NCBI RefSeq assembly: GCF_004375085.3
Contig: NZ_SNAQ03000004.1
Location: 124,001-188,000 of the forward strand
DNA length: 64,000 nucleotides
Reading direction: 5' to 3'
Source: Lewinella sp. W8
Lineage (GTDB): Bacteria > Bacteroidota > Bacteroidia > Chitinophagales > Saprospiraceae
Below are positions 5,518 through 6,347 of this stretch, in pieces (the stretch's first letter is position 1; every line of letters starts with the position of its first letter). Under the pieces are notes generated by a model, which did not search any database, had not been told where the DNA came from, and saw nothing but the letters and a program-made list of their open reading frames with translations. Position numbers and translations under genes: made by a program.

Positions 5518-5715
5518 GTGAGAACTAAAGAACAGGTGACGATGGTCTGCTTTGGGCTGGTGGGCATCATGGGTATTCAACTCGGTCTGTACGAGTTGAT
5601 CCAGGGGCTGGCCTATCCGAAAGCCTACGGCATGCTGTTCATTGGTTCCGTGCTTACCCTTACCGGGTTTGGTCGCTACAAGCGGATCCAGGAAGAAGAA
5701 GATCAGGAGGGTTAG
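5518..5715 (+). CDS. small two-helix membrane protein
   Basis: A short frame with two hydrophobic segments (VCFGLVGIMGIQLGLYELI and YGMLFIGSVLTLTGFGRY) and a charged tail (KRIQEEEDQEG). I see no recognisable family. Three starts are possible: ATG 5431, which gives a 29-residue basic leader unlike a normal N-terminus; GTG 5518, used here; and ATG 5542, which begins right at the first helix. A possible -7-like TACCCTTG at 5510-5517 would favour 5542. It follows the oxidoreductase on the same strand. Its stop is 15 bases before the transposable element at 5731, so its 3' end now reads into that element. Confidence 0.5.
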   Translation: MRTKEQVTMVCFGLVGIMGIQLGLYELIQGLAYPKAYGMLFIGSVLTLTGFGRYKRIQEEEDQEG

Positions 5716-5720
5716 GAGGC

Positions 5721-5730
5721 TCCCTAGTGG
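5721..5730. repeat. 10-bp target-site duplication, left copy
   Basis: TCCCTAGTGG directly abuts the left end of the 607-bp element; the identical decamer abuts its right end at 6338-6347. The pair marks the insertion site. Confidence 0.88.
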
Positions 5731-6337
5731 TAGGCTGTTCCGTGAGATTTCATCAGCGATTCCTGCGGAATCGCGGCAGTTCAGAGGGGCAAATGGTAGC
5801 GGCAAGGCATGTGTCAGTTAGCACAAAGTTATAACCCTTACCGTGGCGTAGAGTTACGGCCGTAGTATGCTTTGTACTCTGTGCCCCACGAATACCTTTT
5901 TCACCTTTAGGTTTGTGGCCAGTAGTCTGACAGACTACAGACTTATCTTGACTCCCACTTAAGGAAATGTCAAATGATTGGAGGCAGGTGGTGTTTCCTT
6001 TCACCGAAAGGAAACCGAATCAGACTGGGATAACTAAAGGACCTTCCGTGAAAGAATGAGGCCAATCGATCTTGTACAATTCTTCCTTCTTTGATGGAGT
6101 GGTCGCCTTTCGGGGAAAGGCGACACCAGGCATTTACCCCTAGGGTGGATGATTTCGCCTTTCAGGTGATCAAGATTTTCAAGAACCCCAGAACCCAGAA
6201 AATTTGGACTTAAATATTACGGGACAAATTATAGCTTCTAGAAGGGGTATAACGCTAATGCCATCCCACACATGCCTTGCCGCTACTAGTAAATTCAATG
6301 ACTTGATGGCCAGAGGGTTAATTCACGGAACAGCCTA
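5731..6337. mobile_element. 607-bp non-autonomous transposable element (MITE-like) rich in hairpins
   Basis: Both ends carry the 15-bp perfect terminal inverted repeat TAGGCTGTTCCGTGA (5731-5745 and, inverted, 6323-6337). The element is flanked by a perfect 10-bp duplication (5721-5730, 6338-6347). A 19-bp perfect subterminal inverted repeat, GTAGCGGCAAGGCATGTGT, lies at 5796-5814 and inverted at 6268-6286. Inside are four perfect stems with 3-nt loops: 5756-5774, 5922-5938, 5993-6015 and 6102-6124. Composition is more AT-rich than the neighbouring genes. It is too short for a complete transposase. The only longer frame, 83 codons on the minus strand (5753-6004), has no family I can name and runs through two of the hairpins. 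The 10-bp duplication suits several DDE insertion-sequence families but does not identify one. It sits between two convergent genes that would otherwise be about 16 bp apart. Confidence 0.85.
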
Positions 6338-6347
6338 TCCCTAGTGG
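6338..6347. repeat. 10-bp target-site duplication, right copy
   Basis: TCCCTAGTGG, identical to 5721-5730, immediately after the right terminal inverted repeat and one base before the stop codon of the GTP cyclohydrolase II-like gene. Confidence 0.88.

Follow-up and report, generated by a model that had tools for sequence, protein, structure and literature searches.

The 607-bp element in the window analysed here (the whole stretch of 64,000 nucleotides) is real, is repeated in the genome and is accounted for by a nest, in which a 144-bp MITE, designated A, is split at its central palindrome by a 459-bp MITE, designated B (Table 1). A and B are two independent insertions, each with its own target duplication. 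The left neighbour of the segment is an unassigned 94-aa ORF that ends at 5715, and the other neighbour is a ribA-like GTP cyclohydrolase II gene, the best named relatives of which include a Lewinella MAG and Neolewinella agarilytica (79% each). We conclude with high confidence that A inserted between these two genes and that B inserted on the palindrome axis, duplicating CATG and bringing with it REPs of the type present at a Y1/RAYT-type locus. A preliminary description had taken the segment for one transposable element with a true 10-bp duplication and without a transposase; the duplication and the lack of a transposase stand, and the single 607-bp element gives way to the two nested MITEs.

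Table 1. Coordinates of the nested MITEs and their internal features, in positions of the window.
Feature	Position	Strand	Remark
Outer MITE A, left 10-bp target duplication TCCCTAGTGG	5721..5730	.	
A, left terminal inverted repeat TAGGCTGTTCCGTGA	5731..5745	+	
A hairpin GCGATTCC-tgc-GGAATCGC	5756..5774	+	
28-bp target palindrome, left arm GTAGCGGCAAGG	5796..5807	+	
Inner MITE B, left 4-bp duplication CATG = palindrome axis	5808..5811	.	
Inner MITE B, 459 bp, TGT..ACA ends, imperfect terminal inverted repeats	5812..6270	+	
B hairpin GTAGTCT-gac-AGACTAC, 7 bp	5922..5938	+	partly kept in other subfamilies
REPIN-like inverted REP pair in B, TGGTG..CACCA	5989..6128	+	stems 5993-6015, 6102-6124
B, right 4-bp duplication CATG	6271..6274	.	
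Target palindrome, right arm CCTTGCCGCTAC	6275..6286	+	
A, right terminal inverted repeat	6323..6337	-	
A, right 10-bp target duplication	6338..6347	.	

The segment is bounded by a perfect 10-bp duplication, with TCCCTAGTGG on both sides, and its 15-bp ends consist of TAGGCTGTTCCGTGA and the complement of this sequence; the length of 607 bp follows from the positions of the flanking duplications and the ends. The segment contains four hairpins with a 3-nt loop and a perfect stem of 7 bp or longer: an 8-bp stem starting at 5756, a 7-bp stem at 5922, and 10-bp stems at 5993 and 6102. Four such stems were found in none of 1000 dinucleotide shuffles (mean 0.054, maximum 2). The terminal repeats, the duplication and the four stems, all noticed in the preliminary description, were confirmed and exceed chance. 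The 19-bp subterminal inverted repeat noticed with them is also real, being the perfect core of two arms (5796-5823 and 6259-6286) that are 86% complementary in the repeat search. As B lies on the palindrome axis, 16 bp of this core belong to the interrupted target, and the other 3 bp are the beginning of B.

The copies of the outer element were sought in its own genome, a draft assembly of 6.18 Mb in 91 contigs. A search with the 607-bp query yielded 70 matching pieces. At about 20 places, query positions 1-81 are joined straight to positions 541-607 with CATG in common, which makes a 144-bp element, and query positions 66-556 are also found without A ends and, reversed, inside A ends. An exact search for the 15-mer end gave 33 places in this genome, and none for the reversed pattern; with up to two mismatches, the end gives 45 + 49 matches and the reversed control 3 + 2. 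In the loci examined, 34 bounded A elements of distinct sequence were counted, 26 of them 142-144 bp long, one of 274 bp and seven of 606-630 bp. This count took in pairs of ends separated by 138-149, 270-279 or 595-639 bp, allowing no more than four mismatches in either end and five in the two together; identical sequences were counted once, and A copies that are degenerate (such as those around L016) or that contain the related B2 elements were left out. The normal length of A is 144 bp, and its uninterrupted copies are empty sites for the insertion of B. The 10-bp flanks of A agree at a mean of 7.97 positions, with a maximum of 4.91 in 2000 re-pairings between loci. The duplication is perfect in 8 of the 34 elements, and at least 8 of 10 positions agree in 25 of them and fewer than 8 in the other 9; it is centred on YTAR, with mid-bases favouring T-Y-T-A-R-A. 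As is usual for MITEs, A is short and non-coding, and it carries 15-bp terminal repeats and a target duplication in multiple copies. The pattern GCGATTCCNNNGGAATCGC of the A hairpin is present at 57 places in the genome, some of them outside A.

The palindrome within A is 28 bp long and runs from GTAG to CTAC. Its form GTAGCGRCAAGG-NNNN-CCTTGYCGCTAC occurs in the genome 21 times exactly and 34 times within three mismatches, and the reversed control gave no match; other A copies have a palindrome with an AATT-type axis. Solo palindromes of the GTAGAGACAAGGCATGCCTTGTCTCTAC type were observed at loci L205-L213, mostly with no GCGATTCC hairpin nearby and often bordered by GCGCAGGTGC / GCACCTGCGC repeats; those with GAGAC arms contain none of the 15 full-length B copies. 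In the 274-bp A copy (L202, C33:4893-5166), an unrelated third insert of about 130 bp breaks the palindrome near the axis, suggesting that the palindrome is a hotspot.

The inner element is represented by 15 full-length copies of 441-485 bp, which form about three subfamilies; the partial copies L015, L017, L018 and L020 were dropped from this set, and L018 and L017 are REP pairs without B ends. With its imperfect terminal inverted repeats and its target duplication, B is likewise assigned to the MITEs. All 15 full-length copies sit at the same point of the palindrome, with palindrome arms on both sides; of the 12 arm positions, between 7 and 12 are paired. Twelve of the 15 copies have a perfect 4-bp duplication, and in two (L008, L014) it differs by one base; the flanks of the remaining copy, L009, are unlike (AATT/CATA), and this copy may be recombinant. 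The duplicated bases follow the target, being CATG, CATA, AAAT or AATT. Eight copies are inside A, one of them (L016) in a degenerate A, and seven are outside A. B occurs in either orientation relative to the GCGATTCC hairpin, which is found at a nearly fixed distance in 13 of the 15 loci (left of B in eight, right in five), and the palindrome arms differ by locus, independently of the B subfamily (L002, L005, L008, L014).

A related group, B2, comprises at least two elements of about 1 kb with B-like ends and a different interior: one of 972 bp in L082 (L082:1460-2431, equal to C11:55459-56430) and one of 951 bp in L084, on contig C21. Their 4-bp flanks are TACT on both sides in L082 and GATT/AATT in L084. 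The hairpins inverted in the B2 interior are two others, CCTTTTG..CAAAAGG and GTACTTTTG..CAAAAGTAC. The CCTTTTG..CAAAAGG hairpin differs between L082 and L084 by a C-G to T-A change that affects both sides. The L084 element is on the axis of an AATT-type palindrome, the right side of which resembles A, and has no ORF of more than 61 aa wholly within it. The L082 element, with the same ends and the TACT duplication, lies in no recognisable palindrome, so axis targeting is not absolute.

The two CCTTTC/GAAAGG stems of B form a 140-bp inverted REP pair, from TGGTG to CACCA. Two inverted REPs thus occur as one unit, and such pairs are also present away from B ends: three full-length pairs without a detected B end are 76-86% identical and keep most of their stems, two more lack the first stem, and one is split around an A+B copy. 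In L087 (C3:155800-158200), partial copies of the REP pair stand on either side of an A+B copy (C3:156602-157207), and these two partial copies have about 25-30 bp in common, a direct duplication far longer than the 10 bp of A. The genome contains seven Y1_Tnp genes, and stems of the B type are found on both sides of one of them, in L078, with 12 strict matches in 3.2 kb. The hairpins at this locus are of two types, GTTTCCTTTY-n-GAAAGGAAAC and GTCGCCTTTY-n-RAAGGCGAC. The match is confined to the stems, as the linker of the L078 array is unlike that of B. The L078 gene scores 31.7 bits against Pfam Y1_Tnp (cut-off 23), and its best NCBIfam match is REP_Tyr_transpos at 60.5 bits, under the cut-off of 80. 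Within 1.5 kb on each side of the other six Y1_Tnp genes, REP stems of the B type are absent. Three of these genes (L075, L077, L079) each have their own repeated hairpin nearby; GGCTTGC-gga-GCAAGCC occurs four times in L079, and the same TCCTCGACCGG hairpin occurs twice in L077.

Among the three B subfamilies, the REP stems are the most constant part of the element. When L001, L011 and L016 were compared, with gaps counted as mismatches, identity was 60-75% in the flanks, 81-84% in the linker and 96-100% in the REP stems. Of the 60 REP columns, 55 do not vary over the 15 B copies, and elsewhere in B this holds for 173 of 429 columns (Fisher p 8e-15), in a test that does not draw on 15 independent sequences since the copies fall into about three subfamilies. 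REP pairs away from B keep their stems too, so this conservation is a property of REPINs and no proof of a role in the movement of B. The proposal in the preliminary description that single-strand processing shapes the segment gains partial support, in that the CCTTTC/GAAAGG stems also surround a gene for a Y1/RAYT-type, that is, single-strand, transposase in the same genome and that the two stems are nearly invariant among the B copies.

Related elements were also sought in other genomes. Copies of the 607-bp unit were found in none of 20 congeners, and the 297 other genomes of the family, with two first-look candidates scored per genome, gave one weak match of 41 query bases (G137). In the same 297 genomes, the exact A end matched once each in G041 and G192, and the reversed control also gave two matches (G052, G300); around the G041 and G192 matches, no second end with fewer than four mismatches was present within 3 kb. 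The B ends gave 12 matches in 10 of the 297 genomes, all with three mismatches, and the reversed control gave 16. The search for an orthologous empty site of A covered 49 named ribA-like loci, none of which matched the molybdopterin neighbour or the 94-aa neighbour, and the beta-lactamase-like neighbour had distant matches at only two of them. No orthologous empty site of A was found among these loci.

A full insertion sequence with the same ends was found for neither A nor B. By the end pattern and by DDE_Tnp_1 and Y1_Tnp family searches, no transposase with A ends was found in the genome. The sole DDE_Tnp_1 gene found is in L117, where five A-end matches at 4-5 mismatches amount, by our own estimate, to about chance level for 3.7 kb. 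All 28 B-end matches in the genome are in B or B2 elements; the end pattern yielded no transposase with B ends, and B itself contains none. In L085, an IS110-family transposase gene adjoins a B2-like right end, which is followed by an A right end (L085:513-1583); this locus is a multi-layer nest.

The nest has to be weighed against an ancestral 607-bp MITE, of which the 144-bp copies would be internal deletions between the 19-bp subterminal repeats. This would fit the observation that the 144-bp copies consist of both ends of the 607-bp unit, brought together at a common CATG, but seven of the 15 full-length B copies are found away from A and have their own palindrome arms and 4-bp duplications, B occurs in both orientations, and copies of one subfamily (L011-L014) are found in different palindromes. 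Moreover, uninterrupted A copies with an AATT axis exist, the bases duplicated by B in such copies are AATT (L016) or AAAT (L003), and the B2 element of L084, with similar ends and another interior, occupies the same kind of palindrome. An ancestral 607-bp unit is accordingly most improbable, and we regard it as already refuted by those B copies that lie outside A and are flanked by matching 4-bp duplications. It was also suggested in the preliminary description that the segment could encode an RNA, and B may be imagined as the gene of a structured non-coding RNA carried within a MITE. The 607-nt strand does fold better than shuffled sequences (z -9.6 for the plus and -7.9 for the minus strand, 20 shuffles each), and the hairpin at 5922 shows GC-to-UA changes in some copies. 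However, features explained at the DNA level, namely the REP stems, the terminal repeats and the target palindrome, dominate the fold by inspection, no Rfam family reaches its gathering score within the window, and two-sided compensatory changes in the 15 B copies affect only six of the 99 predicted consensus pairs. An RNA gene is hence unlikely. A minus-strand 83-aa ORF is unlikely to be conserved either, as B lengths vary by one or two bases (457-461).

On the nested reading, A and B would be non-autonomous, and their movement in trans would have depended on two different DDE-type transposases, each specific for the terminal repeats of its element. The transposase of B would read the palindrome as its target, in the manner of IS1397, ISKpn1 and ISPsy8 on REPs. 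IS3 elements have TG..CA ends, and ISPsy8 also belongs to the IS3 family. With the TG..CA ends and the 4-bp duplication of B, an IS3-like enzyme would be the best fit, an assignment drawn from end dinucleotides, duplication length and target habit; the chances that an IS3-like, REP-targeting partner moved B are about even. A palindrome-targeting recombinase of the IS110 type is an unlikely substitute for the DDE transposase, given that IS110 elements normally lack terminal inverted repeats and that B has imperfect ones together with a consistent 4-bp duplication. The IS110-family gene adjoining the right end of the B2-type element in L085 would speak for such a recombinase, but it looks like a later insertion into B2, and no second B end within three mismatches is present there. 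REPs are targeted by some IS110 elements, according to PMC1525189. The best reading of B remains a REPIN-carrying MITE that was moved in trans by a REP-targeting transposase, which has been lost from this genome, is unassembled or is unrecognised in it. The REPs within B may remain substrates of the RAYT, which would explain their nearly unchanging stems, and their upkeep would then fall to this enzyme. More speculatively, B and B2 could represent a modular class served by two transposases, in which the DDE-type ends pick the palindrome axis and the RAYT maintains an interchangeable internal REP pair. If so, a REPIN population would have a terminal-repeat transposon as a second vehicle.

The components of the nest are of known kinds (a MITE, a REP-targeted insertion and a REPIN), and their combination in a MITE that carries a REP pair and targets palindrome axes was not seen in the open-access literature searched; in a search of this literature by title and start of abstract, no MITE that targets REPs was found among the papers listed, and one may still be in print. 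Like A and B, bacterial MITEs such as MITEPsy1 of Pseudomonas syringae are short and non-coding, with terminal inverted repeats, a target duplication and several copies (PMC3189936). MITEPsy1 inserts at CTAG or YTAA (PMC3189936), whereas A duplicates 10 bp instead of 4, and B targets palindrome axes and contains a REP pair; a partner IS was found for neither A nor B. GTAG-tagged REPs are described as short palindromes with GTAG at an end, in many copies and sometimes within other palindromes, and the passage listing the phyla with such repeats does not name Bacteroidetes (PMC3733652). In these REPs the GTAG tags a single end (PMC3733652), whereas the GTAG of the 28-bp palindrome is paired with CTAC, making it symmetric. 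REPINs consist of two inverted REPs and cluster beside the gene of a REP-associated tyrosine transposase (RAYT), and Bertels and Rainey predict strong conservation of both REPs in REPINs moved by a RAYT (PMC3116915). The pair in B shares the inverted REPs, the clusters beside a RAYT-type gene, here with the same stems at L078, and the conserved REPs, but most full-length copies found here ride within a terminal-repeat MITE instead of alone. This genome is therefore one in which spread of the same repeats by a RAYT could be told apart from their spread by a DDE transposase. For the way in which a transposase reads palindromes, the axis insertions offer a clean natural data set, in which the uninterrupted copies serve as empty sites. 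The closest counterparts in target choice are IS1397 and ISKpn1 (both of the IS3 family), ISPsy8, ISRm22 and ISPpu9/10, which insert into palindromic repeats at a constant position, as B does; ISPsy8 and ISRm22 insert at the symmetry axis, with direct repeats of 3 bp and 6 bp, respectively (PMC1525189). These elements bear a transposase (PMC1525189), whereas B is a gene-less element of 441-485 bp with a 4-bp duplication in a Saprospiraceae genome. REP-type palindromes are thus known as landing sites of whole insertion sequences, and the gene-less B is equally precise, in 15 of 15 full-length copies.
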